Source: Diaphorobacter sp. HDW4A
GTDB lineage: Bacteria; Pseudomonadota; Gammaproteobacteria; Burkholderiales; Burkholderiaceae_C
Assembly (NCBI RefSeq): GCF_011305995.1
Contig: NZ_CP049910.1
Coordinates: 3,162,001-3,226,000 of the forward strand
DNA: 64,000 nt
Direction: 5' to 3'
Part shown: positions 43,101 through 62,303 of the stretch, in pieces
How the letters are laid out: the number at the start of each line of letters is the position of its first letter
Numbering within the stretch: the stretch's first letter is position 1
Notes under the pieces: generated by a model
The model's input: the letters and a program-made list of their open reading frames with translations, nothing else
Database searches by the model: none
What the model was told of the DNA's origin: nothing
Made by a program: the position numbers and the translations under genes

Positions 43101-46100
43101 CCGTGCCACCGCCCTCGCGAATGTGGCTGGCCAGCGCGGCGAAAGTGCCACCCTGAGTCAACGTGTCGTCCACAAGCAGGTAGTCTCCGGGCGCAACTGT
43201 GCCAGCGAAGTCAACGGGCGCGAAGATGCGATCCAGCCCATCCAGACCCGTGCGGTGCGCGCGATTGGCCTGCACGATGCCGCTGGCTGTTTCGAGTCCC
43301 AGACGCTGGGCCAAGACCTCTGCCGCAGCACGCGGGATCTTGTTGCGGCCGGCTGACTCTTCCGCCGCCACCGGCACCACGAGTGGCCGAGCATCGCCGA
43401 TCGCTGCCCTCACCTTCGCAACAACATCGGGCGTGACCAGATCCTGTGCGAGGCGAACGGCCGCTTCAACGTCGCCCGCCTTCGCCGCCGCGTAGTCGGG
43501 ATGCTTCGAGGCTGCGCCCAGTGCGTCGCCAATGATGGCGTCTGGAAGTTCGGTGGGCATGGAGTCGGATCGACTGAATGAAGTCTCCAGACTACCATTT
43601 GCTCCAGCACCTCCCCGAATCACCCACTCGCGCGCGGGCAAGATGTAGCTGCGAATGATCTCGCCGTCGGTCAGTTCCAGGTTCTTGAAACCGGGAACGT
43701 TCTCGCGCAGCCAGGTACGGATGGCGGCCACCGCGCGGCGCACGAATCCCATCTCCGGATGCGTCTCGGCCAAGTTGGCCAACACCTCTTCGGCCGCGGC
43801 CCGGCGGTCGAGCCTGTTCACGCCGCGCAGGCCGTACTCCTTGATCTTGGCGTCCACCTCGGGTTTGCGCATGTTGGCCACCTGGTTGAGGATGGTGTCC
43901 AACTCCTTGCCAAAGCGACCACGCAAACCGTGGTGGCCGAGCACCTCATGGAACAGCACGCGCGCGGCATCCTGCGGCGAGTTCAGGCGCGATGCCATCA
44001 AGTAGGTCTTGCCGCGATAGTAGAAGCCCTCGGGCGCACCGCGCGCGCCGCCGCTGCGCTGCTTGAGGTCCGCACGGCGGGCGCTCTCGGGCACCACGGG
44101 ATCCTGCATGTCGAACGCCACAACCACATCGGCATTGCCGCCCCACGCTGCACGGATGGCATTCACTGTCTGCTCCACTGAGCGAATGGCCTGCATGCGC
44201 GCCTCGGGCGAGAAGGTACTGGTGCTGCTGCCAGTGCGACGGAACGGTATGTCCTCGAAAAAATCATCGGCCTTGGTCCCGGCCGTGTTCCCAGACGAGG
44301 GGTTAGATTTCAGATCCGACCCTTGCGCCACGGGCTGCACCTTTGCTGGTGCTGCCGGAGCTACAGCGGAAGCACGTTCGCCGGAGCCAATTGCATCAGG
44401 TACACCTTGTCGCACAGCGGCGCGAGGCTCAGCGGAATCGACCCGTTGTCGAGTGCCGACAGCAGGAGCCGGGCTTGCATCCGGCCGACCTGCCCCGTCT
44501 TGCGCAGCACTGCCAGCGCCTTGCGAGCGTTCATCTCGCAGCCGTAGATTTCGTGGGGTGACATCATTTGGTTGTCCTCGTTCTGCTTCGGCCTGAGCCG
44601 CATCCGCCGCGTCGATCTCGGCGACGATCTGCGACACGCGCTTGCCGCGCGGGTTCAGTCCGAGATCACGCGCCACCATGCCCGCCTGAATGGCGTTCGT
44701 GCGCCATGTCGGATGGCGTGGCGAATAGACCTCCGGCATGGGCTGCGCGCCGCGGGCGTGGCCCATCTGGGCGGGTTTGACTTCGCGCGCCGTGACATCG
44801 ATGACGCGGCCATCTGCCTGCGGCACCGTGGCGGGCACCTGCGCTGGTTGCGCCTCGCGCACCGGAGAAATACGCGTGTGGTTGTCCATCCCGAGCGCCT
44901 CGCGCTGCGCGCGCTGCTGCTCCAGCGCAATGCGTTGATCGCGCCCTTCATTGACGCGCTGCATGACCTCTGCACGAGACTCGGCTCGAACGCCGTCGGC
45001 ACCGGCCAGCATGCGCCCCGTTGAGCTCGAGTCATGGGACAGCATGGCAGGGCCAGCGGACGGAACAGGTGCGCCATGCTCTGCCGTCAACCGCACGGAC
45101 GGCTGCACGTCGTAGCCGCGCCCACTGGGATGGAACACCACCGTGGCCGGGATACCAGCATCGATCGCACGATTGCGCAGGGCATGCGCCTCGTTCAGGC
45201 GAAGCGCCTGGCCAGGCTCCTTGCCGTCCGCAATCGCCAGTGCAGCGATCTGTTCGGCGAAGGGTGCGGGTGCTGGCGCCTGCACATCGGGCGCAAAATC
45301 AATCTCGTTGCCGAAGCGCTGCTGCTCGCTGGGCTGCAAGGACAGGGGTGCCTCTGGCGTTGACGTTGCATTGCGAGCATTCCAAAGTGCTTCCGGCGAG
45401 AACATGCCATGAAGAAACTCTGCGGCGGCTGCACGCTGCTGCGGTGGCAGCGCAGGGTTCTGAGCATCGTTGAGGCGCTGGCGCACTTGCTCCCGGTACT
45501 TTGGCGCCACGGCACTGTCGATCAGGTCCGCGTACGTGTTGACGTCAGGAAGATCAGGCTTGTGGGCATCAAACCCCTGCAGATCAGGCCTGCGAGCATC
45601 AAAGCCGCGCATCACACGGCCGCTGTCCATATCCTGTATGCCGGGCTCCACTGGCGCCGCCGCAGATGCAAGAGTGCGCGCCTCCCCTTCGCGGAAAGCA
45701 CGAACGCCAGCAGGCAGATCTTCGTTGCCCAAGTCCGCCTGCAGCATCTGGGCCTCGCGCTGCTGCTCTGGCGTCAGGCGATCAATGGCATCACCCAACA
45801 CATTGCGCGCATCGGGTACCACCGGTGCCGGAGTCTCTGGAACCAGCGACAGCTCTGCGGCCTGTGATGCCACCTTGGAGATCGGGCCATCGTTGGGATT
45901 GATTGCCGGAGTGGCTGCCGCGCTGCTGGTGGCCTCGGGCGTCGGACCGACATTCCCCGCCTGATCGGCGAAGAGCGTTGCGGGCGTCGAGTCGTCTGGT
46001 GCGACGGATGCATCAACGCCACCCTCCGCAACCACGGACACGCCATCACCTGCGACCGGAGCGGTATCAGCAGGCACCGCATTGGCAGGCAGTTGCTCGG

Positions 46101-46941
46101 CAGACTGTTGACCCCGGCCACGCACACGATCAGCAACGCCCGAAGCGCCACCCATCACACCACCGCCGATGCCGCCCATGGCTGCCGCGAGCGCTGTGTC
46201 CTCGATGTTTTCGGCCTTGGTCGGATCCTTGAATGCACCCCACTGCTCAATGACGTTCTGTGCACCTTCGGTCGCGCCCTCCTTGAGTACGCCCTTCCCG
46301 ACTTCTTTGAGGACGGTTCCAGCAGCGCCGCCGGGCACGCCCTTGAGCACGCTGAGCGCCTTCCCCATGCCCACGCGCTCGAGCGCCGTTGCAGGGATGG
46401 CCGCCGCCAGAGCGCGAGCCTTGTCCTCTTGGCCAGCCTCCTTTTGCTCTTGCCGAATACCGCCATATTCCTGCGTGAAAATCGGAGCCAAGCCGCCGAC
46501 GACACCACCGACGGTGCCACCAACCGCTGCACCTGCAGGGCCAAGCAAACGCCCCATGGCGCTGCCCGCCTTCGCACCAGCGATACCACCAGCGCCTGCA
46601 GCCGCGATCTGCGGCGCGAACTGCCCGACCGACTCCTTCACTGCGAGCCAGGGACTGTTGACCAGATCACGCAAGCTGCGGATGCCCGCAGGATTGCGGT
46701 CGATGATCCCCTGCCCTGTTTCCTGCACGGCGCGCGTGACAGCATTAGGGCCCGTGACATCCTCAGCGGTTGTCGCAGCTGTGGTGAGCATCTGCCCGGC
46801 CGTGCGTTTCACCGTGGGAATGAACCCCGGCTTCGTCTCCTCGACGGGCTCAAATTGCGACCAGTCAACAGCGCCGCCAGCCGCTGCTCCATCCGGTTTA
46901 TCGTCAATCGGCGTGTAGTCGTTCCAGTTCACATTGCTCAT
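40150..46941 (-). CDS. Giant phage polyvalent protein (zincin, phosphoribosyltransferase, PLxRFG domains)
   Basis: A 2263-residue protein, last gene of the late operon. Visible parts: a Gly/Ala-rich hydrophobic stretch near 111-152; a zincin-like peptidase motif LFHEVLGHHGLRG around His998; a phosphoribosyltransferase PRPP loop LLVDDTLTQGGT with Asp1258-Asp1259; a PLxRFG motif YFPLARFG at 1570-1577; and a long helical C-terminal region with hydrophobic segments. Such chains are known as polyvalent proteins, thought to be injected with phage DNA to counter host defences. The ATG at 46941 lies two bases after the upstream stop; an earlier in-frame start would overlap that gene by 120 bp. A truncated relative is the pseudogene at 32262-33770. 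Roles of single domains are inferred from motifs. Confidence 0.88.
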   Translation of the reverse strand: MSNVNWNDYTPIDDKPDGAAAGGAVDWSQFEPVEETKPGFIPTVKRTAGQMLTTAATTAEDVTGPNAVTRAVQETGQGIIDRNPAGIRSLRDLVNSPWLAVKESVGQFAPQIAAAGAGGIAGAKAGSAMGRLLGPAGAAVGGTVGGVVGGLAPIFTQEYGGIRQEQKEAGQEDKARALAAAIPATALERVGMGKALSVLKGVPGGAAGTVLKEVGKGVLKEGATEGAQNVIEQWGAFKDPTKAENIEDTALAAAMGGIGGGVMGGASGVADRVRGRGQQSAEQLPANAVPADTAPVAGDGVSVVAEGGVDASVAPDDSTPATLFADQAGNVGPTPEATSSAAATPAINPNDGPISKVASQAAELSLVPETPAPVVPDARNVLGDAIDRLTPEQQREAQMLQADLGNEDLPAGVRAFREGEARTLASAAAPVEPGIQDMDSGRVMRGFDARRPDLQGFDAHKPDLPDVNTYADLIDSAVAPKYREQVRQRLNDAQNPALPPQQRAAAAEFLHGMFSPEALWNARNATSTPEAPLSLQPSEQQRFGNEIDFAPDVQAPAPAPFAEQIAALAIADGKEPGQALRLNEAHALRNRAIDAGIPATVVFHPSGRGYDVQPSVRLTAEHGAPVPSAGPAMLSHDSSSTGRMLAGADGVRAESRAEVMQRVNEGRDQRIALEQQRAQREALGMDNHTRISPVREAQPAQVPATVPQADGRVIDVTAREVKPAQMGHARGAQPMPEVYSPRHPTWRTNAIQAGMVARDLGLNPRGKRVSQIVAEIDAADAAQAEAERGQPNDVTPRNLRLRDERSQGAGSAAQDGAGRPDASPAPAVGTRQRVDSAEPRAAVRQGVPDAIGSGERASAVAPAAPAKVQPVAQGSDLKSNPSSGNTAGTKADDFFEDIPFRRTGSSTSTFSPEARMQAIRSVEQTVNAIRAAWGGNADVVVAFDMQDPVVPESARRADLKQRSGGARGAPEGFYYRGKTYLMASRLNSPQDAARVLFHEVLGHHGLRGRFGKELDTILNQVANMRKPEVDAKIKEYGLRGVNRLDRRAAAEEVLANLAETHPEMGFVRRAVAAIRTWLRENVPGFKNLELTDGEIIRSYILPAREWVIRGGAGANGSLETSFSRSDSMPTELPDAIIGDALGAASKHPDYAAAKAGDVEAAVRLAQDLVTPDVVAKVRAAIGDARPLVVPVAAEESAGRNKIPRAAAEVLAQRLGLETASGIVQANRAHRTGLDGLDRIFAPVDFAGTVAPGDYLLVDDTLTQGGTFAALASHIREGGGTVTGVVALTGKQYSAKIQPSSEILSSLRQKHGDLEHEFRAATGYGFDALTESEARYLARYEPSQRLRDRIAEEGRRGRERQDQSHSGQEQTGDDDVRFSRSADDTPAAQRVGDMLKSVTVTNIKKQAGFKAADLRHLGLQMLGRRQLVDVYGDMLPELRTYSDLMARMDADKNEAGAGADQLATEWGKLKDERALAELMHDSTLAQMDPTREYQQGDNAVRYGDLHRRFNSLSPEAKDIYTRARDTYRKHMRDMRNAIKERIERAEMSSERRAEMLKRMDNEFFGHIKGVYFPLARFGQYLVVVKDAEGKVSNVSRAESMSEADEMRRQMLVNFPAAQGFNVGKVLKSKDFVADRDTVGRGFMEQLYGVLDKQGMDGKQRAELEDALGQLYLSSLPDLSWAKHGMHRKGTAGFSQDARRAFAQNVFHGASYLAKLRYGDQLQEQLGDMQERVDGSAHDTSFDSVKGQHVVDEIVKRHDAAMNPKSSAVSTFLTSLGFIFHLGLSPASAMVNLTQTALVAYPVMGARWGFGKSSAALLKASQETARGKNDITGALNPDERAAFDEAVRSGVVDVTMAHDLAGIAQGEDRNVSHKLAPVMRVASAMFHHAEKFNRQVTFIAAYRLAREAGADQKQAYADAVQATYDGHFDYSANNRPRFMQGNWQKVLLLFKQYSQNMVYTFARSAHQALKGASPEDRAVARKTLAGLLTTHAMAAGVLGLPMVTTLLAAASMLGGDDDEPWDAQVALQNLLADTFGQKPAEVLAHGLSRLTPWDISGRVGLDKLIFPDVQEGLEGQRLGEAAMTAALGPVAAIGVNALKGLQEMGEGRYARGLETMAPTVLRGPLKAFRYGTEGVKDKSGIVIQDEVDAASLLGQAAGFSPSDVRNAYEGKSAIVGHDKALQARRSALVEQFAMAVMSKDDEGKADARAAIAKFNEKNPNRRILPMQLAQSVHARQKRIREAEDGVYLPKKRRDVLEQGRFATGD

Positions 46942-46943
46942 GC

Positions 46944-49046
46944 TCAACCTCCCACGGGAACGGGCTTGCCGTTCTTGACCACATAGATGCGCCCATCCTT
47001 GCCGCGCACCTTTGTGCCTTCGGCGGGCGATGCCTGCTCGGTGGGTGCGGGAGCTTGAACCCACTGCTTTTCCACCGTGTCATACAAGCTGGTCGGCTCC
47101 TTGACTGTCTGACCGTCGCGCACCGTCTGGCCGCCGCCCACGGTGACAAAGCGATCCTTCATGGAGTCAGACTTGCCATGCAAGGCCAGCAGGCGCTCGC
47201 GTGCGCTGCGCTGCTCGACGGGCGTCTTGGCGTTCTGCAGTGCCATCTCAGCGTCGTCGATGCGCTGGGCTGTTCGCTCCTGACGCGCTGCGGTGCCCTG
47301 CTTGATGGCAAGTTCCCCGCGTGCAATAGCGTTCGAATCACCGTAGTGGCGGGCATTGATATTCGCGCGGTCCGTAGCTCCCATCTGCTGCAGCCGTTCG
47401 CGCGCCATGGATCCGGACTGCTGCATCGCTTCGCGCTGAAGCGCATTGCCGCCGCGAACGTTTTCAAGATCCTGCGCCTCGAAGGAACGCAAAGCATTCG
47501 AGCCCTGAGCAGCCGTTTTCTGGTGGATCGAAGAGGCTTGGACCTCGGCATCGCGGCGCTGCTGCTCGGGCGTGCGCGACCACATATTTCCATTGCCCGA
47601 TTGCTGGCCGATGACGCCTGTGAATCCTGCAGTGCCTGCAGCCATCAAACGGGCCTGAGCATCGCCGCCGCCGCCCTGGCCGCCGTTCGGCGCGGGAGCT
47701 GCGTTCCCCTGATTCAATCGCTGGTCATACGCAGGGTTGTAGCCAACGGGTGTTGCACTGGCGATCAGTCCAGCCTGAGCTGCCTGCTCGGGTGTCATAC
47801 CCACGGGCGACTGCGTGCCAGCATTCAACAGCCGTGAAGCCGCGCTGCCGCCGTTGGTGCCGCTGCCGCTCGTCGCGAACGCGTAGTTTCCGTTGTCATC
47901 CATCGCCATGCGCGAGCCTGCTGGGGCCGTGGTGACGCTACCAAAGCCACGGCCATTGATGCCCGCACCAGGCAGCGCATCGCCCTTGGCATTGGTGTAC
48001 GACACCGGCCCCGACACGTCGTTTCCGCTGAACGACATGGTGCCGTTGGCCTGCCGCTGAGCGGTCACCCGCCCTTGCGGATTCGCAGCGCCGACGTCGG
48101 CATTGGTCATGCCCGAGCGATCCCAGGACGGCTGCGCGGGTGCAGGGGCAGCAGTCGGCACCGTGGATGTTGGTGGCGGCTTGTTCGGATCGGCAAACTC
48201 TGGATTGATGCGGCCACGCCCGGCGCCAGCTCCAGCAGTTGCATCAGGCGACGAGGGAGTCTGCGCCGCCGCTGCAGCGCCCGACATGGCTGCGCCACTC
48301 GCGATCATGCCGGAAGCGTTGCCAAGCAGTCGTGATGCTGCACTGATACCTGAACTGACGGCTTGGCCAGTGCTGGCAACAGCGGGCAATGCACGAGAGA
48401 TACCAGGTATTGCCATTGCCGAGTTGTAAACATTGCGGCCGATCTCGGAGTCCTTCCAACTGTCGCCGACCTGACGACCCGTGGAGATGGATGGGCCTTC
48501 GTCCTTCGGGATCTGGGCAATCAGTTCGTCGCGCGTGAAGTCCTTGGCGGGCGCCGCAGCAGACGTTGGAGCAACTGGAGCCGATGCTGAAACAGGTGCA
48601 CCAGAAAACCCGCTGTCGCCCTGAATGCGATTGCCGGGGAAGGTGTTCGAAGGCGAGGAAGGCGACGGCATTGGAGCGGGTGCTGGTGCCGGTGGTGCTG
48701 GTGGCGCCTGCGTCACTCCCGGATTGGTCGTCGCTGCTGCCGCGTCGCCAAAGCTGTTGGGTTTCTTCAGCTCGTCATCCACCATGCCGCCATCGGCAAA
48801 GCGACGGCCGCGCCGCTGCTTACCCGTGGGTTCATGCGTGGAGTCCACGAGGTCGCGCAACGACCTGAGGCCAACGGCTTGCACGGTGTCGGCGGGCAGC
48901 ACGAACTCATCGCGTGAGAGCTTCGCGTCCACGGAGTCGGATGTAGGAGTGCCGGGACCTCGAACGAGGCCGCCATCACGGAATCGAGGAGCTGGGCGCG
49001 CAACGCCCAGGAGCCGCTTCGCGGCGGCGGACAGTGGTTGAGACAT
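46944..49046 (-). CDS. Large low-complexity phage virion-associated protein
   Basis: A 700-residue protein with no known catalytic motif. The N terminus FRDGGLVRGPGTPTSD to LRDLVD is a conserved box of large phage proteins of this kind. The middle is rich in Pro, Ala, Gly and Ser (long APAP runs), and the last 250 residues are Gln/Arg-rich and helical, perhaps coiled. It sits between the adaptor gene and the polyvalent-protein gene, so it may be an internal or tail-associated virion protein that enters the cell with DNA. Confidence 0.75.
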   Translation of the reverse strand: MSQPLSAAAKRLLGVARPAPRFRDGGLVRGPGTPTSDSVDAKLSRDEFVLPADTVQAVGLRSLRDLVDSTHEPTGKQRRGRRFADGGMVDDELKKPNSFGDAAAATTNPGVTQAPPAPPAPAPAPMPSPSSPSNTFPGNRIQGDSGFSGAPVSASAPVAPTSAAAPAKDFTRDELIAQIPKDEGPSISTGRQVGDSWKDSEIGRNVYNSAMAIPGISRALPAVASTGQAVSSGISAASRLLGNASGMIASGAAMSGAAAAAQTPSSPDATAGAGAGRGRINPEFADPNKPPPTSTVPTAAPAPAQPSWDRSGMTNADVGAANPQGRVTAQRQANGTMSFSGNDVSGPVSYTNAKGDALPGAGINGRGFGSVTTAPAGSRMAMDDNGNYAFATSGSGTNGGSAASRLLNAGTQSPVGMTPEQAAQAGLIASATPVGYNPAYDQRLNQGNAAPAPNGGQGGGGDAQARLMAAGTAGFTGVIGQQSGNGNMWSRTPEQQRRDAEVQASSIHQKTAAQGSNALRSFEAQDLENVRGGNALQREAMQQSGSMARERLQQMGATDRANINARHYGDSNAIARGELAIKQGTAARQERTAQRIDDAEMALQNAKTPVEQRSARERLLALHGKSDSMKDRFVTVGGGQTVRDGQTVKEPTSLYDTVEKQWVQAPAPTEQASPAEGTKVRGKDGRIYVVKNGKPVPVGG

Positions 49047-53014: not shown

Positions 53015-55114
53015 TTAATCAGCCCGAACACCATCGGGCGCGAGGGTTTCAATGCCCGCCTCCTGGCCGCGCGCTGGGCTGGCCGGTGTGAGCGGATCGG
53101 TGTTCTGTGGCAGCGCAACGGGCTGCATGTCGCCGGATGTCTGCGGGACAATCGGCGCCGCGTCGTGATCGACAGCACCAGCCGAACGCAGCAGGCCGTC
53201 GGCGAGCGCTGCCGTGGCAGGCGTCTGGGCGATCACCTGCGCCGTCTGCACGCTGCTGTATTGGGTCTTCACAGCAATGTCTGTCGATTGGGTATCTGTC
53301 TTGCGTGTCTGGGCATCAATCAGGCGCACACGGGCATCGACGGTCGGATCGGCCGGTGGCTTGTTGCCTTCGATGGAAGCAAGGATCTCTTCCTTGTCCG
53401 CGAGGTTGGAATACCGGATGAGGATCGCGGGCGGGATCGGTGCGCCGGCCTTCAGCATCTCCAGTGCCTGCTGGAACTGGCTGTTCTGGAATGTGACCTG
53501 CATCGGCTGCTCGGTGATCACCACGTCGTAGGTGCCGACCGTCACGTCGTTGACGTAGCTGCCGGTAAACGGATCGAAGCTGTTGATCTCGACACGCTCC
53601 TCCTTGGGCTTGCCCGACATCGCATCGGTCTCGGTGATGCGGAAGATCCGGTAGCTGTCGTAGTACCGCTGGATCAGCTTCAGGATGCGGCGCGCGAGGA
53701 GATGGCGCGTATAGGCCAGATTGTCGAGCGGCACGGCCAATTGCTGCTGGCTGGCGAACTGCTTGGACTGGATGGCCACGCCCGAGATCTCCGGGCCTGC
53801 GCTGCCGCGCATGGCGTCTGGAACTGTCACGTCCTTGAGCGCCTTGTCCACGCGGTCGATGAACCGGTCAACGCCCGCCGGGATCTGGTTCGGCTGGATC
53901 TTCTGTGGACGCTTTGCGATGTCCTTGACCTCGATGTGCAGGCCGGTCTGCGCACCGCGCTTCTCCAGTTCGCCCGAATCCATATTGGTGATGGAGTTCT
54001 GCTCTGTGATCCACCCACTGTTCGCGCTCGTGTTGACGATGTGCACGAACTGGCTCATGGCCTTGTTGAGCGCCTCCTGGGGGCCCATGGCGTCGTCGAC
54101 CATCCCTGCCGTCTTGCCGCGACGGAAATACGCGAAGTACGGCACGATGGTGAAGTGCTCGTATGGGCTATAGGTGTCGTGCAGCGTGGCGGTGAACGTG
54201 GTGACGGTCCACTTCACGCGCCGCTGCATGCGCCTGGCGCGCACCGCGCCATTGCCCAGCGCATCCGCAATGGAGTCCTGCGCCATCACCGCCTCGACCT
54301 GAATGTCGCCGGTGGTGGGCCAGACGATGCAAGGTGTGAGCTCGTAGATGAAGCGCTGGCGGTCGATGATCCGGTAGCGCTCGAGCCCGTCATCCTTCTT
54401 GGCGTGGGCATCAAGCCACCCCGAACGGTTGCCCGCGGCGAATTTACTGCGTTCCGGCTCGTCGTCCATGTCCCCGAAGTCCACGCCCGCGTCGTTGCTC
54501 TCCGCGGCCGTGTCGCGCGCCTTCTTGCCATAGAGCTGCTCGATCTCGCCGAGCGTGAGCCAGCGCGTCACGATCACGTCGCCCCACTCGTCCGGGTCGT
54601 AGGACTTCGAGTCCGGATCCGGAATGACGTCCATGGGATCGCGGTTGCTGATCTCGATCTCGCCCTGAATGTTGCGGTCGAAGTTCATGCGCAGCTCGAA
54701 ATAGCCGCGCTGCTGGATCAGCCCGTCGCTGAACACCTGAGTTTCATGCCAGTGCAGATTGCAGAGGTCCGCGACCTGCATGGCGACCTTGGAGAGGATG
54801 GTGGCCGTGTTCAGATCCGCGTCGCCGCCGCGTGGCTTGAACGCGATGTCCATGCGGTTGTGGATCTGGTAGCCGATCGCGCTGTTGATCGATGGCTTGA
54901 TCTCGTTGAACTCGTAGGCCGGGCGGCGTTCCATCGCAAGCTGCGCCCGCGCCTCGGGCGTCCACTGGCGGCCGCCGCCGAGGTACATGTCTTCGCAGCG
55001 CGCGGCATGCGGCATGTACTCGAGGTGGCCACGGTTCTTGCCGTATTCGTAGCGCGCCCAGTTCTCGCGCGCCGCGTCGTCGCCTGTGCCGGTGATGGGG
55101 GATGTGATGTTCAT
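53015..55114 (-). CDS. Portal protein, P22-like
   Basis: A 699-residue portal protein. The sequence includes RRPAYEFNEIKPSINSAIGY and YQIHNRMDIAFKPRGGD at 65-110, PMDVIPDPDSKSYDPDEWGD near 160, and a long helical C-terminal half with GVAIQSKQFASQQQLAVPLD. These fit the P22 portal family (about 700 residues). Twelve copies would form the DNA gate of the capsid. The ATG overlaps the terminase stop (ATGA). Confidence 0.88.
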   Translation of the reverse strand: MNITSPITGTGDDAARENWARYEYGKNRGHLEYMPHAARCEDMYLGGGRQWTPEARAQLAMERRPAYEFNEIKPSINSAIGYQIHNRMDIAFKPRGGDADLNTATILSKVAMQVADLCNLHWHETQVFSDGLIQQRGYFELRMNFDRNIQGEIEISNRDPMDVIPDPDSKSYDPDEWGDVIVTRWLTLGEIEQLYGKKARDTAAESNDAGVDFGDMDDEPERSKFAAGNRSGWLDAHAKKDDGLERYRIIDRQRFIYELTPCIVWPTTGDIQVEAVMAQDSIADALGNGAVRARRMQRRVKWTVTTFTATLHDTYSPYEHFTIVPYFAYFRRGKTAGMVDDAMGPQEALNKAMSQFVHIVNTSANSGWITEQNSITNMDSGELEKRGAQTGLHIEVKDIAKRPQKIQPNQIPAGVDRFIDRVDKALKDVTVPDAMRGSAGPEISGVAIQSKQFASQQQLAVPLDNLAYTRHLLARRILKLIQRYYDSYRIFRITETDAMSGKPKEERVEINSFDPFTGSYVNDVTVGTYDVVITEQPMQVTFQNSQFQQALEMLKAGAPIPPAILIRYSNLADKEEILASIEGNKPPADPTVDARVRLIDAQTRKTDTQSTDIAVKTQYSSVQTAQVIAQTPATAALADGLLRSAGAVDHDAAPIVPQTSGDMQPVALPQNTDPLTPASPARGQEAGIETLAPDGVRAD

Positions 55115-56619
55115 GCTGTGGCCTGATCCCAGTTACTTGCCGCCCCGACTCCAAGGCGTGCGCGCCAGCCCGTCGCGGGTGTGGCGGTGCTGCTCGCGAT
55201 GGGTGAGGCAAAGGTGAGGAGGAGCGAATCAGCGCAGTCAGGACTGGGCAGCCCGCGCGACTTCATGTCGTCCTTGCTCTCGATGACGATACGCATGCGG
55301 CGGTCGTAGCCGTACTGCGGGCCGGTGAGGTCTGCTTCCATCTCGGGGTCCTCGGGAAGGCAACCGCCCTCTTCCAGCCAGCTCTTGCCCTGATCCCAGA
55401 GCTCCGAGCGTTTGTTCCAGTACCGGCTCTCGTTGGTAGCCTTCTCGCCGACCTGCACCGCGAACACGATCTTGCCAAAGCCCATCTGGCGCAGGCGGTC
55501 GATCACGCCCCAGCCGAGGCCGGTCGCGTCGATGAACACGGCATCCGGTTTGAATTCGTGGATCTCGATGGCAATCAGGTCAGCGAGCTTCATCAGGTCG
55601 GGCTCGCGCAGCTTCTTCTGCGGCCAGACGTGATTGCCCTGGCGCCGCGTGAACACCGATTGATCATCACCGTGGCGAGCAACGTCCACGCCCAGTACCT
55701 TGGCGAAGTGCCCATGCCCCTCGGACTTGCGGCGCTGCGCCTTGGCCACGGTGTCCAGGCTGATGAACTGCAGGCTGCCAGCACGGGGGAACACGCCGCG
55801 CACGCGGACGCGCACGAAGTCGTGGTCCTCGCCGTAGTCATCGATCCACTTCTGGATCTGCGCCTTGTTCGCCATCTTGGCGGTGCGGCTGTCCACCTGC
55901 CGGGTGATCCAGCGGTGTTTGAACTTGCCGAAGCATTGAGCGAACCGGCCGGTGGTCTGCGTGGGGTTGCCAAACGCGAGCCACATGGCGCCGGGCGTGG
56001 TCATCGCACCCTCGGTCACTTCCCAGATCTTGTCCGCAATGGCCGAGGCCTCGTCAAAGATCACCAGCACATGCTTCTCGTGCGTACCGGCGAAGGCTTC
56101 CGAGTTGTGCTCGGTCCACGGAATCGCGGCGGCGAACCACACCTCCGGATAGAGGACATGATTGAACTTCGTGGCCGACCATTCGAACCAGTGGGCGTTG
56201 ATGCTGAGCTTGTGCCACTTGGAGAGCTCGCGCCACGTCTTGGTGGTGAGCTGCGTCTTGGTGTTGGCGGTGACCACCACCTGCGGAAAGTCCCGCGTGC
56301 TCATGAACCACAGGATGATCCACGCCACCAGCCCGGTCTTGCCGATGCCGTGGCCGCTGGCGACTGCGATCTGAATAGCAGTCTGCACGTCGGTGCCGCT
56401 GAGCAGTGCCCGACGGATCTCTTCCATCACCTCGCACTGCCAGGTGTCGGGACCAGCTTCATCGGCCAGCGGTGTGCCTGCGACACCCCACGGGAACACG
56501 TAGCGCACGAAACCCTCGGGGTCGTTGAAGAACCCGCCGACATCGTCGACCAGCTGCGCCTCGACCTCAGCAGGCCGGGCCAGACGGCTCTTAGCGGTTG
56601 GCTGCGCGGGTGCGGGCAT
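55111..56619 (-). CDS. Terminase large subunit
   Basis: A 502-residue DNA-packaging motor. The ATPase P-loop is in ASGHGIGKTGLVAWI, the Walker B acidic pair in VLVIFDEAS, and the RNase H-like nuclease domain begins LGVDVARHGDDQSV with a second acidic motif in AVFIDATGLGWG. Start ATG at 56619 overlaps the small-subunit gene by 29 bp. The longer reading to 56709 would run deep into that gene and lacks a good ribosome-binding site. Confidence 0.92.
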   Translation of the reverse strand: MPAPAQPTAKSRLARPAEVEAQLVDDVGGFFNDPEGFVRYVFPWGVAGTPLADEAGPDTWQCEVMEEIRRALLSGTDVQTAIQIAVASGHGIGKTGLVAWIILWFMSTRDFPQVVVTANTKTQLTTKTWRELSKWHKLSINAHWFEWSATKFNHVLYPEVWFAAAIPWTEHNSEAFAGTHEKHVLVIFDEASAIADKIWEVTEGAMTTPGAMWLAFGNPTQTTGRFAQCFGKFKHRWITRQVDSRTAKMANKAQIQKWIDDYGEDHDFVRVRVRGVFPRAGSLQFISLDTVAKAQRRKSEGHGHFAKVLGVDVARHGDDQSVFTRRQGNHVWPQKKLREPDLMKLADLIAIEIHEFKPDAVFIDATGLGWGVIDRLRQMGFGKIVFAVQVGEKATNESRYWNKRSELWDQGKSWLEEGGCLPEDPEMEADLTGPQYGYDRRMRIVIESKDDMKSRGLPSPDCADSLLLTFASPIASSTATPATGWRARLGVGAASNWDQATA

Positions 56620-57238
56620 CAAGCAGCCTTTCGAGGAAATCCTTGTCGCCTTCAGTACCAGCGTCGGGATGTGCATTGAGGCCGCAAACCTCACTCTCCA
56701 GTGAGACAAGAATGCGCATCGCCTCTGCCAATGCCTTCATAGACTTGGTGCGTTCGGGGAAACTGATCACCGCCTGGTAAATATCGTTGAGACGATCCGG
56801 AGCTTTGTCGTCGTCCTGTCGCAGAATCTCGCCAAGCCGCAGCAATTCGGGAACCTGTTCGGTCTGCAGTTCCAGCTCCGCAAGAAGCTTTGCCACCAGC
56901 CTGCGAGCGCGTTTGACATCCGCGCGCTGGCCGAGCCGCGTCTCCTTCATGAGGTTCGCCTCGACCTCAATCTGGCGGGCTTCGGTCAGTCTTTGGTCTT
57001 CTCGTACTTGAGCTCGTACCACCGACTTTCGTACCAGTTCATCCGCCTTCGCCCGTACCTTGGCGTTGAGGTCACGGACCCAGCCATCCCGCTTGGCGCG
57101 CTTGCGGATGGCACCCTCGGTGATGCCATGCTCCTTGGCAATGGCATTGACGGCACGGACTCCAGTGCGGAAGTCGCGCTCGATGGCCTCCCAGTTCGGG
57201 GAGGTCTTTGGTTGCTGTGGTGACTCTGCGGCAGACAT
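56591..57238 (-). CDS. Terminase small subunit
   Basis: A 215-residue protein. An N-terminal helix-turn-helix (DFRTGVRAVNAIAKEHGITE, then GAIRKRAKRDGWVRD) should bind the pac or cos site, followed by long charged helices that can oligomerise. It precedes the large subunit gene in the standard order. Start ATG at 57238. Confidence 0.85.
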   Translation of the reverse strand: MSAAESPQQPKTSPNWEAIERDFRTGVRAVNAIAKEHGITEGAIRKRAKRDGWVRDLNAKVRAKADELVRKSVVRAQVREDQRLTEARQIEVEANLMKETRLGQRADVKRARRLVAKLLAELELQTEQVPELLRLGEILRQDDDKAPDRLNDIYQAVISFPERTKSMKALAEAMRILVSLESEVCGLNAHPDAGTEGDKDFLERLLDARTRAANR

Positions 57239-57481
57239 ACCCCGTAGGGTGCCTGCAGTGGTACGAAGTACGAAGCCCTAGAGGGGGTAGCCCGACTAGT
57301 CAGGGTGTTGAGTGCGTCCAACCCGATGCACTTCCACCAGATTGCTGGCGACCCTGAGTTGCTTTTCACAGTTCCAAGAGTCCCCATTACCCAGCTGGAC
57401 AGGAGCCGCGTATCGTTTTAGCTTGATGCATCTACGTGGTTTGCGGCATCATCGTCTGCCGAACACATCGAAATGCACCAC

Positions 57482-57865
57482 ATGCGTATTCACCACTATT
57501 TCATCGCTGTCGCTTTTTCAATCTCGTTCTCCAATGCAGCACTGGCGCAACCAGTACATGCAACATGCGAGAGCAAAAAGGCAGATATCTCACGCGATAT
57601 AGAACACGCGAAAGCCAAAGGACAAGCAAGCCGTGTACGTGGTTTGGAGAAGGCACTGCGCGAAACCCAACTCCATTGCAGTGATGCCAAGCTGGAGAAA
57701 GAGCATGCAGCGCGAATCGAGAAGCAAGAGAAAAAGGTAGTGGAGAGGCAACGCGATCTCGACAAGGCACGAGAGCAAGGCAAAGCTAGCAAAATCGCAG
57801 ACCGGGAAGCCAAGTTAGCCAAGGAAAAGGCCGAGCTCGAAAAGCTGCGTACCGGCACCCAATAA
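57482..57865 (+). CDS. DUF1090-type periplasmic protein, opposite-strand cargo gene
   Basis: A 127-residue protein transcribed against all neighbouring phage genes. A signal peptide (RIHHYFIAVAFSISFSNAALA) precedes a mature Lys/Glu-rich chain with CESKKADISRDIEHAKAKGQ and a helical repeat ADREAKLAKEKAELEKL, likely a coiled coil. This fits DUF1090 (YqjC-like) proteins of unknown function. Its position between the terminase genes and the DNA-binding protein gene suggests a moron expressed from the prophage. An earlier ATG at 57473 is possible. Confidence 0.75.
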   Translation: MRIHHYFIAVAFSISFSNAALAQPVHATCESKKADISRDIEHAKAKGQASRVRGLEKALRETQLHCSDAKLEKEHAARIEKQEKKVVERQRDLDKAREQGKASKIADREAKLAKEKAELEKLRTGTQ

Positions 57866-57943: not shown

Positions 57944-59059
57944 TTACTCCTGATCCGGCCTCCTCCACCCCAACCTATTGGCCCTCTTGTGAACCGAGGT
58001 CGGACTCACGCCGTGTTTCTCGGCCAATGCGGTGAGCGAGATCCGGGAGGTTGTGTATTCGTGCTCCAGCTCTACCCATGCGTCACCGATCCCCGGATTG
58101 CACGGGATGCCCGGAATCTTTCGTTGGAGCCGCGCCCACCGCACCGCTGCCTTCCCGCGGTTGAGCTTCTTGGCCACCTCGGCATCTGTCATGGTGCCGA
58201 GCAGTGCCACCTCCTCCGGAGTCCAGCGGCGCTGGGTTTCAAAGGCGGTGATCCCCAAGCGAACTCGGGTATGGCTCACGGCGCTTTCATTTATGCCAAG
58301 ACGAGCAGCCACGCTGGCATCGGAAGCGGTGCCGAGCAGTTCCCGCAACTCCGCCGATGGTGTTGGTTTGAAAACAGGAATGCCGTGCAGCCGCCTCATT
58401 TGGAAAACTGACGAATGACTGACTCCAATTTTTCTGGCGACTTCGGCATCGCTCACTGTGCCAAGGAGCGCGAGCTCCGTTTCGGACCATGACCTTGAGG
58501 GTCTCCCGAAGCCGAGAATGCCAATGGTATGGCGCTTGTATTGCACCGTGCTGAGCGTCAGACCAAGCAGCTCGGCAATGCGTGCATCAGTGTCTGTTCC
58601 CAGCAGGCTCAGGGACTCCGAGCACCATACCCGAGTCGTCCACATGAATCCAGGGATCTTCAACTGTCTGCGCTTCTCGCGCACGGCAGAAATGCTGATA
58701 CCCAGTTCCTTCGCGATGATCGGGTCTTGATCAACACCCAATCGGGCGATGTGACCTTCAGGCCACTGAAACGCGCGTTTTCGCCAGGCAACAAGTCCCA
58801 ACGATAGACGTTTGAGTCGCACTGAGCGCTCCGAACAGCCAACAAGCAAACCGACCTCTGCGTCTGCGGCGCTTCCCAACAACGCGATTTGGTCCGCAGT
58901 CCATCCGAACGGTGGAGCCCGCCATCGTGGAATGTCTGCATTTTCGCGCTGCCACCTGACCGCCGCTGCTGAACGGCCAACTCGCAATCCGATCTCGGCA
59001 TCACGCGCCGTACCAAGCAATGCTCGCTCTTCCCGCGTCCACCGTTGAACCCTTTTCAT
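57944..59059 (-). CDS. Protein of seven tandem helix-turn-helix modules plus a terminal HTH
   Basis: A 371-residue protein built almost wholly of repeats. Seven copies of a module with the pattern ALLGTxxDAEVAxxLGxSxx then AVxxxRxxxGIPxF lie at about 13-44, 59-89, 105-138, 151-184, 197-230, 240-273 and 285-318, a period of 43-46 residues. Each looks like a Myb/SANT-like or homeodomain-like helix-turn-helix, with a variable second helix (SAAAVRWQRE, SERSVRLKRL, SISAVREKRR and so on). The last 45 residues (SLTALAEKHGVSPTSVHKRA) form a different HTH like that of the terminase small subunit. It probably binds a long DNA site. No enzymatic domain is visible. Start ATG overlaps the upstream stop. 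Confidence 0.85.
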   Translation of the reverse strand: MKRVQRWTREERALLGTARDAEIGLRVGRSAAAVRWQRENADIPRWRAPPFGWTADQIALLGSAADAEVGLLVGCSERSVRLKRLSLGLVAWRKRAFQWPEGHIARLGVDQDPIIAKELGISISAVREKRRQLKIPGFMWTTRVWCSESLSLLGTDTDARIAELLGLTLSTVQYKRHTIGILGFGRPSRSWSETELALLGTVSDAEVARKIGVSHSSVFQMRRLHGIPVFKPTPSAELRELLGTASDASVAARLGINESAVSHTRVRLGITAFETQRRWTPEEVALLGTMTDAEVAKKLNRGKAAVRWARLQRKIPGIPCNPGIGDAWVELEHEYTTSRISLTALAEKHGVSPTSVHKRANRLGWRRPDQE

Positions 59060-59580
59060 GAATCCACTCCCTTCTGAGTTTCAGCTTCGGATGGGCTTGA
59101 CGCCGCACCGACAGGCTCTCCACCATCCTGCGCCGCTCCACCCTTCTGCGGCCGCTCCGCTTCGCTCTTGTTCACAATGCGCCGCGCCAGACTGGCCACC
59201 TCCGTGATCTGATGCGCCGCCTCAATCGCCGCCAGCACGGCGGCCGATCCACCCATGATCTCGCCCACGCTGCGGCTCTCCCGTGGCGTCAGCTCGAGCA
59301 CCACGTCGCCGACCTCCAGCTTCACGCTGCCGTTGGGAAGGTTCGTGCGGCTGACAGCGCGTGATGGCGGGTGCTCATACTTCGGCAGGTACACGCCCCG
59401 CTCTGGCGACCAGATCTCGCCACGATCTTTCAGTTCCTTCAGGCAATCCGACACGGTCACTTGCTTCAGTCCAGTGACCCGCATCAGCGCCGGAGTAGTC
59501 ACCACCCGCTCCTGATCGTGCAGCTCGCGCACCGCCTCGAGCACCTGCACCCGGCTGCTCACGTCTGAAAGTTTTGCCAT
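59056..59580 (-). CDS. Phage HTH DNA-binding protein
   Basis: A 174-residue protein. Residues about 10-65 form a winged helix (VLEAVRELHDQERVVTTPAL, then GLKQVTVSDCLKELKDRGEI), and the rest is a charged tail with a LELTPRES motif and an Ala/Ser/Glu-rich end. AAGGA lies eight bases before the ATG at 59580. It belongs to the early operon between the helicase and the HTH-array genes; a regulator or replication accessory is likely. Confidence 0.7.
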   Translation of the reverse strand: MAKLSDVSSRVQVLEAVRELHDQERVVTTPALMRVTGLKQVTVSDCLKELKDRGEIWSPERGVYLPKYEHPPSRAVSRTNLPNGSVKLEVGDVVLELTPRESRSVGEIMGGSAAVLAAIEAAHQITEVASLARRIVNKSEAERPQKGGAAQDGGEPVGAASSPSEAETQKGVDS

Positions 59581-59581
59581 C

Positions 59582-59830
59582 TCAATATTCCTTCGATCCA
59601 GACGAACACTTGCAATCGTCGTTGAGCCTTTTCTCCCGCCGCTCAATCAACATGGGACGCAAGATTTGAGCTGCCGCGCGACATGCATCATCCGACCCGA
59701 AGAAAATTGGGGCGTAGTCCGTTTGACGATCACCATGGAATTGACGCCGGTTGGCGATCAACATCGCCGCTACAGTCTCTATGTGGAACAAGCATTGTGA
59801 CTGGCTCCAAAGCAGAACATGCTGTTTCAT
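59582..59830 (-). CDS. Small phage protein, unknown function
   Basis: An 82-residue protein starting MKQHVLLWSQSQCLFHIETV, with a Cys-x-Cys near the end (DDCKCSSG). It starts 10 bp after the helicase stop with AGGG upstream and ends one base before the next gene. I do not recognise a family. The upstream extension of the frame overlaps the helicase gene and is left out. Confidence 0.6.
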   Translation of the reverse strand: MKQHVLLWSQSQCLFHIETVAAMLIANRRQFHGDRQTDYAPIFFGSDDACRAAAQILRPMLIERREKRLNDDCKCSSGSKEY

Positions 59831-59840
59831 CGCTTCACCC

Positions 59841-61214
59841 TCAGAACTTTGCTGCACGCCCACTGAACCCAGTGGGAGCTGTTGAACTTTGCTTGACTGG
59901 GATGGGATGCAGCCAATCACCCATTTGCTGGCACTGCCCAATGAACTCGAGCGGTACCAACCCCTGCGGGCCATTTCGATGCGCCACGATTTCCAACTCG
60001 GAGTAGCCTTGAAACTCCTTTGTTCGTTTGCTCAAAGGATGAGCCCAATCCGTGAACAGCAGTGCGATTTGATCGGCCGCAGCCTCGATGGCGCCGGAAT
60101 CACGCAGATGGCTCATGGTCGGTCGACCGTAGTGCTCGTCGGCCTTGCGGCTCATCTGGCTCAGGACGACGGCACAGATCTCCAGATCAAGCGCCATGGA
60201 CTTGATTCCGTTCACGATCACATCCAGCTCGCGATTTCGGCTTTCCTCACCTGCACCGGCCATAAGCTGCAGGAAGTCGACGAAGAGCACATCCAGTCCA
60301 CGCTCGCGGCGCACCTTGAGCGCCTTTCGGCGGATGTCCATCAAGCTCAGGCTGCATTGATCGTCATGGTTCAAATGCAATACCTCAAGTCGTCGAGCTG
60401 CTGCCGTCACCGCAGACCACATCTTCTGATCCTCCGGATCTGCCGCCAGAATTCGAGCCAGATCGAAAGAGCCCGCTGCAGCCGTGTGACGATGCATGAG
60501 CTGGTTGATCGGCATTTCCTGGCTTAGGAACAGCACGCTGTGATCGCGCGCCATGTTCCGAGCCATGGCCAACGCTAGCGCAGTTTTCCCGTGCTTCGGC
60601 CTGGCACCGATCACCATGACCTCGCCGCGTCGCATGCCGCCATTCAGCAGCTTGTCCAATCCACCGATGCCAGTTCGGATCGCAGGATTCTTGCCTTCAC
60701 TCAGATCCTGCAGTAGGTCAAGGTACTTCGCCAACGATTCATGGATGAACTGGGGATCACGTCGGCCTTTGACGGTTGCCAGCTTGGCCAGCATCATCTG
60801 CGCCTTGTCCAACTGCTCGGCCGCCACAGCACCCGGCATCATGGCCATGTCGCAAATCTCGGAACCCGCATCCATCAACTGCCGCGACCGATAGCGGTCC
60901 TCGATTACCTCGGCATATCGACGCATGCTGCCCGCACTCGGCACGTACTGCGCCAGATCGTGAAGATATGCGACATTGACAGAACTGCCCATCTCGCCCA
61001 GTTGCACCATCACGGAGACAACATCGAAGGGTTTGTTCTTTTTTGCCAGCGTATGGATGGCCTGCCACACATCCCGGTACTCGGAAAAATGAAAAGCCTC
61101 AGCCACCAGGTCGCTCGCATGGCAGATCATCGAGTTGTCCATGAGCAAGCCACCAAGCAGTCCAGCTTCCGCTTCTGCGCTGCAGGGAACCTCATTCCGC
61201 ATGGACGAACTCAC
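59841..61214 (-). CDS. DnaB-like replicative helicase
   Basis: A 457-residue helicase. The N-terminal DnaB domain (EAEAGLLGGLLMDN) is followed by the RecA-like core with Walker A in GARPKHGKTALALAMA and Walker B in VLFVDFLQLMAGAG. Walker A has Lys-His where DnaB proteins commonly have Ser/Gly-Met/Gly, a mild variation. The start is GTG at 61214, seven bases after GGGGAAG and inside the end of the replication-initiator gene; an ATG at 61202 is the alternative. It should load at the phage origin with the initiator. Confidence 0.9.
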   Translation of the reverse strand: MSSSMRNEVPCSAEAEAGLLGGLLMDNSMICHASDLVAEAFHFSEYRDVWQAIHTLAKKNKPFDVVSVMVQLGEMGSSVNVAYLHDLAQYVPSAGSMRRYAEVIEDRYRSRQLMDAGSEICDMAMMPGAVAAEQLDKAQMMLAKLATVKGRRDPQFIHESLAKYLDLLQDLSEGKNPAIRTGIGGLDKLLNGGMRRGEVMVIGARPKHGKTALALAMARNMARDHSVLFLSQEMPINQLMHRHTAAAGSFDLARILAADPEDQKMWSAVTAAARRLEVLHLNHDDQCSLSLMDIRRKALKVRRERGLDVLFVDFLQLMAGAGEESRNRELDVIVNGIKSMALDLEICAVVLSQMSRKADEHYGRPTMSHLRDSGAIEAAADQIALLFTDWAHPLSKRTKEFQGYSELEIVAHRNGPQGLVPLEFIGQCQQMGDWLHPIPVKQSSTAPTGFSGRAAKF

Positions 61215-62109
61215 GGTGATACTTCCCCTCGAGGACAGAAATGAACCTCGATTGCGTCATCAAAAACTCAATGTCACAACCGGTCCATGCGCCGTTTCGA
61301 CCGGTCAGGAAGTCACTGGCGGCGACGTGTACGAAGAATTTTTCGAACCACTCAACACCCTCCTCTTTCGTGGTCGCCATGCGTTCGCCAATGTGCTCGC
61401 CGAACTCCTGGTTCTCGGTCAGAACCCACGCCCAACGGGCGCGCATGGCCTTTCCGCGCTTGCTGTCCGCAAACCCTGCTCGGCGAGCTCGCGGCATAGT
61501 TGGGCAATGCAGGTCGTACAGGTCAAGCAAGGCCTCGTAGGGACAGGGAGGGACTCTCCACGTCGGTGCTTCACAACTTAGCGGTCCGAGAACGCCATCC
61601 AGCGAACGTTGCTCGGTTTCTGACGACGAAGTCGACAAAGAAGCGTTAGCTTCTTCCTGTATTAACTCTTCTCTTCTCTTCTCTTTCTCTAGCTCCGCAA
61701 CTTGGCGGTTTTCGTCCTCGGACTGTCCTAAATCTGTCCCGATGTTGTCCGCAACTGATGCGGACACTTTGCGCGTGTTGGCCTTCCGTTGCGCTTCCGT
61801 TGCACGACGCTTTGCGGACGCCCCGTTGTGTTCTGTGAAGTTTTGCAAGCAGACACCATCGGAAGTTTCCGCAAGCCATCCAATGTCGCACAACGCTTTC
61901 CCTATGCCTTGGACTCCCGTCTTGCGGTCAATTTGCCGAAGTGTGAGACCCGGCATCAAGCCATCTTCGGTATGCTGATCAGCTGTTGCCCACAGCCAGT
62001 AGAGAGCGCCGACTACGGCTGCTTCACTGGTATCGGTCATGTCCACCAAAGCAGCAACACGCGGGTCGTCCCACAAGTTGCCGCGCATCTTGATCCAGTC
62101 ACCGGCCAT
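61192..62109 (-). CDS. Phage replication initiator-like protein (O-type)
   Basis: A 305-residue protein. The N terminus GDWIKMRGNLWDDPRVAALV and the following helix-rich domain (residues 1-110) match phage replication proteins with a winged helix. The middle is a charged Glu/Lys linker, and the C terminus ends with MTQSRFISVLEGKYHREF, a motif of primosome-type O/DnaT-like proteins. It precedes the helicase gene. GGAG lies seven bases before the ATG. A phage origin inside the linker region is possible, but no iterons were found. Confidence 0.78.
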   Translation of the reverse strand: MAGDWIKMRGNLWDDPRVAALVDMTDTSEAAVVGALYWLWATADQHTEDGLMPGLTLRQIDRKTGVQGIGKALCDIGWLAETSDGVCLQNFTEHNGASAKRRATEAQRKANTRKVSASVADNIGTDLGQSEDENRQVAELEKEKRREELIQEEANASLSTSSSETEQRSLDGVLGPLSCEAPTWRVPPCPYEALLDLYDLHCPTMPRARRAGFADSKRGKAMRARWAWVLTENQEFGEHIGERMATTKEEGVEWFEKFFVHVAASDFLTGRNGAWTGCDIEFLMTQSRFISVLEGKYHREFVHAE

Positions 62110-62111
62110 AC

Positions 62112-62303
62112 TTACTCCTCGGCCTTTCGCGCTTCGCGCTTGGCTGCGCGAAGCGCGCGGATGAGCCCATCCACATTCACTGGCGCCACGACCACGTTGC
62201 ACTGAGTCATCTCGTCATCGCCTAGGTATTGGCTGATGACAATCTGCCCGTTTTCATTGATGGAAACGTCGATCTGGTTTTGTTGCTGTACTGCTACTGC
62301 CAT
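62112..62303 (-). CDS. Small early phage protein, unknown
   Basis: A 63-residue protein beginning MAVAVQQQNQIDVSINENGQ and ending in a Lys/Arg/Glu helix (IRALRAAKREARKAEE). It lies directly before the replication gene, with a 2-bp gap. No family is recognised; the pattern of an N-terminal beta hairpin and C-terminal helix suggests a small binding protein. Confidence 0.65.
   Translation of the reverse strand: MAVAVQQQNQIDVSINENGQIVISQYLGDDEMTQCNVVVAPVNVDGLIRALRAAKREARKAEE

Follow-up and report, generated by a model that had tools for sequence, protein, structure and literature searches.

What does a phage protein composed of one helix-turn-helix (HTH) module after another bind, and what would such binding serve? 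We addressed this question for an array of HTH modules encoded in Diaphorobacter sp. HDW4A, within a window of 64,000 nucleotides (the whole stretch of DNA analysed, positions 3,162,001 to 3,226,000 of contig NZ_CP049910.1). The array gene and the modules assigned from the sequence and an AlphaFold model, followed by the terminal HTH, are as follows.

57944..59059 (-), array gene, 371 aa: seven tandem HTH modules and a terminase-like HTH
58904..59041 (-), module 1, aa 7-52
58766..58903 (-), module 2, aa 53-98
58628..58765 (-), module 3, aa 99-144
58361..58489 (-), module 5, aa 191-233
58226..58360 (-), module 6, aa 234-278, without the leading Trp
58079..58225 (-), module 7, aa 279-327
57959..58078 (-), eighth HTH, small-terminase type, aa 328-367

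Repeat structure and predicted fold of the array protein

The modules of the window protein start at residues 7, 53, 99, 145, 191, 234/235, and 279, which gives a spacing of 46, 46, 46, 46, 43-44, and 44-45, with almost no sequence between neighbouring units. Five residues (L9, G10, D14, V28, and R32) are shared by 7/7 modules, and the identity among the modules is 32 to 55% (mean, 40%). The BLOSUM autocorrelation of the protein peaked at lags 46, 92, and 138 and reached 0.33 at lag 46, compared with a maximum of -0.32 over lags 20 to 139 in 1000 shuffles, which rules out a chance repeat. AlphaFold2, supplied with 15 family sequences, predicted a fold of eight consecutive three-helix units (mean pLDDT, 84.1; pTM, 0.33); because of this pTM value, the model informs on the units and not on the mutual arrangement of the modules. 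A two-module model (31 sequences) had a pLDDT of 86.8 and a pTM of 0.52. The protein is basic (pI 10.6), and its tail (aa 328-367) has a match of 7e-9 to PHROG 1206 (small terminase subunit), over positions 9-48 of the 207-position profile only and not over its whole length. The sequence-only reading had described seven HTH modules with a fixed frame and differing recognition helices, followed by a terminase-like HTH, and this description was confirmed by the repeat analysis and the eight-unit model.

Gene neighbourhood in the prophage

The array gene belongs to a prophage, with the following neighbours.

53015..55114 (-), portal protein
55111..56709 (-), large terminase subunit
56591..57238 (-), small terminase subunit, phrog_1206
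57473..57865 (+), DUF1090 gene between the array and the small terminase, opposite strand
59056..59646 (-), winged-helix gene, phrog_8117 (annotated as unknown function), overlapping the array start
59841..61214 (-), DnaB-like replicative helicase
61192..62202 (-), replication initiation protein

The ATG of the array gene (59059) overlaps the stop codon of the gene upstream. To the right of the array, on the same strand, lie the winged-helix, DnaB-like helicase, and replication initiation genes and then a small gene that weakly matches a repressor, and the end of the window is followed by genes for an S24-type peptidase/repressor-like protein and a phage integrase. The Pfam and PHROG matches of these neighbours bear out the earlier placement of the array gene between replication genes and terminase. 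In three phages, the array and the small terminase are separated by unrelated frames on the opposite strand (window 57473-57865 (+), L019:1202-2185 (-), and L164:6422-6982 (-)), and the gap resembles an insertion spot for cargo. Two large RHS-repeat proteins adjoin the prophage (window 26824-31614 and 34579-39105 (+)), and a 2304-aa phage protein (window 40150-47064 (-)) has PHROG matches that include DarB-like antirestriction.

Likeness to known families and systems

The array family is matched by generic HTH models only. In Pfam, the window protein hit such models through parts of modules, and seven of them rose above the whole-protein cut-off by summing these partial matches, while NCBIfam gave no family above the cut-off for six arrays. 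Two further candidates were rejected, namely, a Pfam GAF match of the window protein, which is below the cut-off and spans two modules, and PADLOC mad1, with a whole-protein E value of 2.7e-11 but 0 stretches passing alone. Foldseek found no PDB match at E <= 0.001 for either array model, and sequence searches of solved structures returned nothing credible.

Among viral proteins, PHROG 323 ("D5-like") matched the array at 2.5e-29 in 3 stretches, and the array model had 27 viral fold matches at E <= 0.001, one of them a Vibrio phage D5 (E 1.7e-5). D5 of phage T5 is annotated as DNA binding and as required for replication and late transcription, and it is encoded beside a putative DnaB-like helicase. 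T5 D5 itself, used as a single sequence, showed no link to the two-module profile A1 (hhalign probability, 4.2), and no array of two or more modules was found in the T5 locus (L015). According to a preprint (PMC13405049), T5 D5 sets off a type IX retron by means of its HTH.

A three-unit tandem HTH protein is already known in Cbp1 of Sulfolobales, whose three HTHs are described as aligning along one DNA (CRISPR) repeat (PMC10883916). Cbp1 resembles the array in its tandem HTH domains and short linkers but differs from that of the window in having three domains, in being archaeal, and in binding CRISPR repeats. It was not matched by sequence to the array, and its structure (2lvs) was the top Foldseek match of the two-module model with an E value of 0.26, which is not significant. 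The GIY-YIG homing endonucleases of Vibrio phages bear a different likeness: the two examined (L016 and L017, annotated as GIY-YIG or homing endonuclease) carry 4 array-family modules each, which sit behind an N-terminal part. These proteins carry an annotated nuclease domain; GIY-YIG was absent from the 23 Pfam families that matched the window protein at E up to 1. The GcrA DNA-binding domain was likewise considered as a near comparison.

TALE-like repeats comprise about 34 residues and two helices, with one repeat per base. The array has in common with TALE, BAT, and other repeat DNA readers a linear string of modules with a fixed frame and variable reading residues (PMC4066763, PMC11417379), but its modules are three-helix HTHs of 43-46 residues. 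A term search of the main text of PMC11417379 for HTH and for phage found neither, and the array family was not described in the titles or abstract openings covered by an open-access literature search, a scope outside which most subscription papers lie.

Arrays in other phages

By tblastn, 8 of 50,697 phage records matched (7 Vibrio, 1 uncultured). The window array, used as a single-protein query against viral and genome contigs, and the winged-helix protein, used against viral contigs, gave no relatives. A related small terminase was found at 316 viral loci, and the best 80 of these contained one array (L019, 4 modules). A degenerate DNA pattern spanning two successive modules was used to scan viral and genome sequences and returned 6 viral stretches, 5 with arrays, three of these distinct (L163/L168, L164, and L166/L167), as well as 42 genome stretches, with arrays of at least two modules in 32 of them. 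Searching with the small terminase of L166 (80 loci kept of 381) yielded arrays at 8/80 loci, three of them new (L213, L218, and L219), and a scan with the L164 array matched nothing besides L164 itself. A tri-module alignment (A2) was out of register and was excluded from the analysis.

Eight array phages were compared (the window, L019, L163, L164, L166, L213, L218, and L219); L163 and L166 are near-duplicates in the array region (92.5% identical DNA), and L166 was dropped from several phage counts. In 8/8, a winged-helix gene lies directly upstream of the array, and in 8/8 the array is upstream of the small terminase gene. The winged-helix profile was built from six proteins including those of the window, L163, and L019, so that these three match by construction and the position is the finding. 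The comparison of module number among related prophages that had been proposed gave 4-7 modules (by the module finder, 7 in the window, 4 in L019, 6 in L163, 7 in L164, 6 in L166, 7 in L213, 5 in L218, and 7 in L219). A terminase-like tail is present in the window array (PHROG 1206 match) and, by eye, in those of L163, L164, and L166; the arrays of L019, L213, L218, and L219 are, by eye, without it.

Turnover of the putative reading heads and of array DNA between phages

Following the canonical HTH numbering, we took positions 11, 12, 13, 16, 17, and 20 to be DNA facing and refer to them as heads; they were fixed after the variability of the window modules had been seen. The recognition helices of related prophages, whose comparison had also been proposed, turned out to differ at these positions between some of the phages. 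The arrays of L163 and L164 are collinear from the C terminus, and their heads agree at 5/36 positions versus 33/66 other exposed ones (Fisher, 2.7e-4); the core agreement is 0.87, and 0/20000 random position sets had an agreement as low as the heads. The close relatives L163 and L166 showed no head contrast (0.83 versus 0.88 at other exposed sites). Across five phages, the identity in the last module was 0.18 for heads, 0.57 for other exposed positions, and 0.70 for the core, while the small-terminase heads of the same five phages were 0.87 identical and the winged-helix heads were 0.47 identical, equal to the other winged-helix sites. For the earlier modules, head identity was 0.05-0.18, with uncertain pairing, as the homology between phages of modules counted from the C terminus beyond the last is not sure (core identity, 0.32-0.62).

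In 43 phage modules, R, K, H, N, Q, S, T, Y, and W made up 0.65 of the heads versus 0.37 of the other exposed sites, and D and E made up 0.07 versus 0.20. The composition of the heads is suited to DNA, and the heads are therefore not simply drifting.

The terminase and portal DNAs of L166 and L164 are 84% identical over 3.5 kb, while their arrays align in two pieces only (302 and 197 bases, at 68 and 71%). Similarly, terminase and portal genes are 76% identical over 4.3 kb between the window and L019, whose arrays do not align. For L163 and L166, the identity is 92.5% in the winged-helix and array region and 84% in a terminase stretch. On these comparisons, the array behaves as an exchangeable, fast-changing cassette.

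Arrays on plasmids and chromosomes

From the window alone the array had seemed a lone oddity, a view that was not borne out, as arrays of 3-10 modules are widespread and extend to related prophages, Pseudomonas megaplasmids, Burkholderiales chromosomes, Planctomycetota, and Verrucomicrobiota. Matches were found in 88 of 72,556 plasmid records, 83 of the 88 being from Pseudomonas, and the collected plasmid arrays have 3-9 modules. All six plasmids searched whole had matches (6/6), and 4/6, including pQBR103 and pPma4326F, had them in at least two separate frames. These two megaplasmids carry several different array frames each (L127, L129, L133, L134, and L161), for which the annotations seen were hypothetical protein.

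At least 10 of 399 genomes of the host's family and at least 2 of 369 of its class matched, the window's own genome included in each count; both counts are lower bounds, with at most 13-14 candidates scored per genome. The host genome also encodes a 162-aa three-module array protein (L004:5547-6035 (-)), which is present in all five other host-genus genomes searched and, with similar heads, in Comamonas. The chromosomal three-module gene adjoins a yebC-like gene in the four genomes whose surroundings were read. Arrays of up to 10 modules occur in records of Planctomycetota, Verrucomicrobiota, Comamonas, Collimonas, Paraburkholderia, Rhizobium, and Pseudomonas, and 68 distinct frames of at least three modules were collected, at least one pair of which is one gene cut differently. 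Four-module arrays of Collimonas (L173:4690-6063 (+) and L179:381-1712 (-)) continue, after a cysteine-rich stretch, into an in-frame DUF746 match, above the Pfam cut-off in L173 and below it in L179.

Conservation of the heads among orthologues

We also determined head identities for 12 three-module proteins encoded on chromosomes, of which nine come from whole genomes and three, of Comamonas, from genome contigs; genome G325 (L107/L123), whose array has three modules by scan and heads that differ by eye, was excluded. Between genomes, head identity in modules 1-3 was 0.81, 0.81, and 0.74, as against 0.08 between modules of the same protein. For other exposed positions, the values were 0.74, 0.48, and 0.49 between genomes versus 0.26 between modules. 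Random position sets reached the resulting head contrast of 0.71 (null, 0.33) in a fraction of 0.0003. This test favours the head reading because its sets, like those used for L163 and L164, were drawn from the 33 positions left after setting aside five invariant ones and include buried positions. Heads versus other exposed sites is the fairer comparison, with cells that are not independent. Within-module head conservation alone was not unusual in these proteins (0.79 versus a null of 0.70; fraction, 0.14).

In the six-module megaplasmid protein (pQBR103 and pPma4326F), the heads were 1.00 identical and the other exposed sites were 0.88 identical, with heads differing between modules (0.13). 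Orthologous four-module plasmid arrays kept their heads less (0.67) than their other exposed sites (0.77), and the window protein alone showed no contrast between modules (0.18 for heads versus 0.16 for other exposed sites). Taken together, the comparisons support differing recognition helices and give evidence that the DNA-facing residues are under a selection of their own; in some of them the heads do not stand out.

A probable long-site DNA binder and its alternatives

The explanation that we prefer, with a probability of roughly 60%, is that the array protein would be a long-site, sequence-specific DNA binder, its target re-chosen in each phage, with a probably regulatory role at the early-late switch. 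The HTH modules would line up along a single extended DNA site, into which every module would put a recognition helix of its own; by analogy with Cbp1, the site may be tens of base pairs long, and binding would be sequence specific. Together with the winged-helix partner encoded just upstream, the array could act as a delayed-early regulator leading from replication to late genes. It is only the gene order that suggests a regulatory role, the place in the early operon and the coupling to the winged-helix gene pointing to regulation around the switch to late genes. Since heads vary among phages with similar packaging genes, the protein probably targets a regulatory or immunity site that changes fast and is specific to the phage, or else a rival's DNA.

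The earlier suggestion that the array marks a packaging site was weakened by the same comparison. We consider it unlikely that the array and its terminase-like HTH bind beside that site and help the small terminase to choose DNA: the PHROG 1206 match of the eighth HTH and the gene order, with the array upstream of the small-terminase gene in 8/8 array phages, fit such an accessory, but among five phages the small-terminase heads have an identity of 0.87 and the array heads one of 0.05-0.18 (pairing sure for the last module only), arrays were found at 1/80 and 8/80 of the loci kept for two related small terminases, some of these loci ending before the array position, and the tail is absent, by eye, from 4/8 array proteins (L019, L213, L218, and L219). 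Array heads change and terminase heads stay constant, which makes the packaging site an improbable target. Use as a weapon, the array binding to rival phage or plasmid DNA and thereby blocking these elements, would explain the quick retargeting and the several copies on megaplasmids, and it agrees with the head turnover between phages, the cassette-like divergence of array DNA, and the presence of at least two array frames on 4/6 plasmids searched whole. This, too, seems improbable, for the window protein has no nuclease or other effector domain in Pfam, no PADLOC family has a stretch passing alone, and the array is co-linear with replication genes rather than set apart.

T5 D5 is a non-specific or weakly specific coat of phage DNA. 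That the array protein is a coat of this kind, as its pI of 10.6 and its PHROG 323 match (2.5e-29) would allow, is quite unlikely in view of the heads conserved in the chromosomal and six-module megaplasmid orthologues and of the absent direct sequence link to T5 D5 (hhalign probability, 4%). We give very little credence to descent from a homing endonuclease that lost its nuclease and left a DNA-binding half with little function of its own. The GIY-YIG proteins of Vibrio phages, encoded beside or near terminase genes, do carry arrays of the same modules, yet the array frames are intact, the window protein has no GIY-YIG match, arrays of 4-7 modules occupy one and the same position in eight phages, and decay would not keep the core residues.

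Beyond the preferred reading, the arrays might represent an undescribed class of modular DNA readers, a proposal that we make tentatively. In such a class, 3-10 GcrA-like HTH modules would be joined, a few recognition-helix residues per module would set the bases read, and phages, plasmids, and bacteria would redirect the arrays to other long sites by head changes and by gain or loss of modules, making it an HTH counterpart of TALE and zinc-finger arrays. Zinc fingers and TALEs came from tandem DNA-binding modules. A demonstrated recognition code would raise the novelty of the family, and nature offers variation resembling an experiment, with one scaffold whose heads differ among related phages and are fixed among the orthologues of chromosomes and megaplasmids; this variation makes a recognition code for tandem HTH modules directly testable. 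For the array genes of the megaplasmids, now annotated as hypothetical, the proposal supplies a concrete hypothesis.
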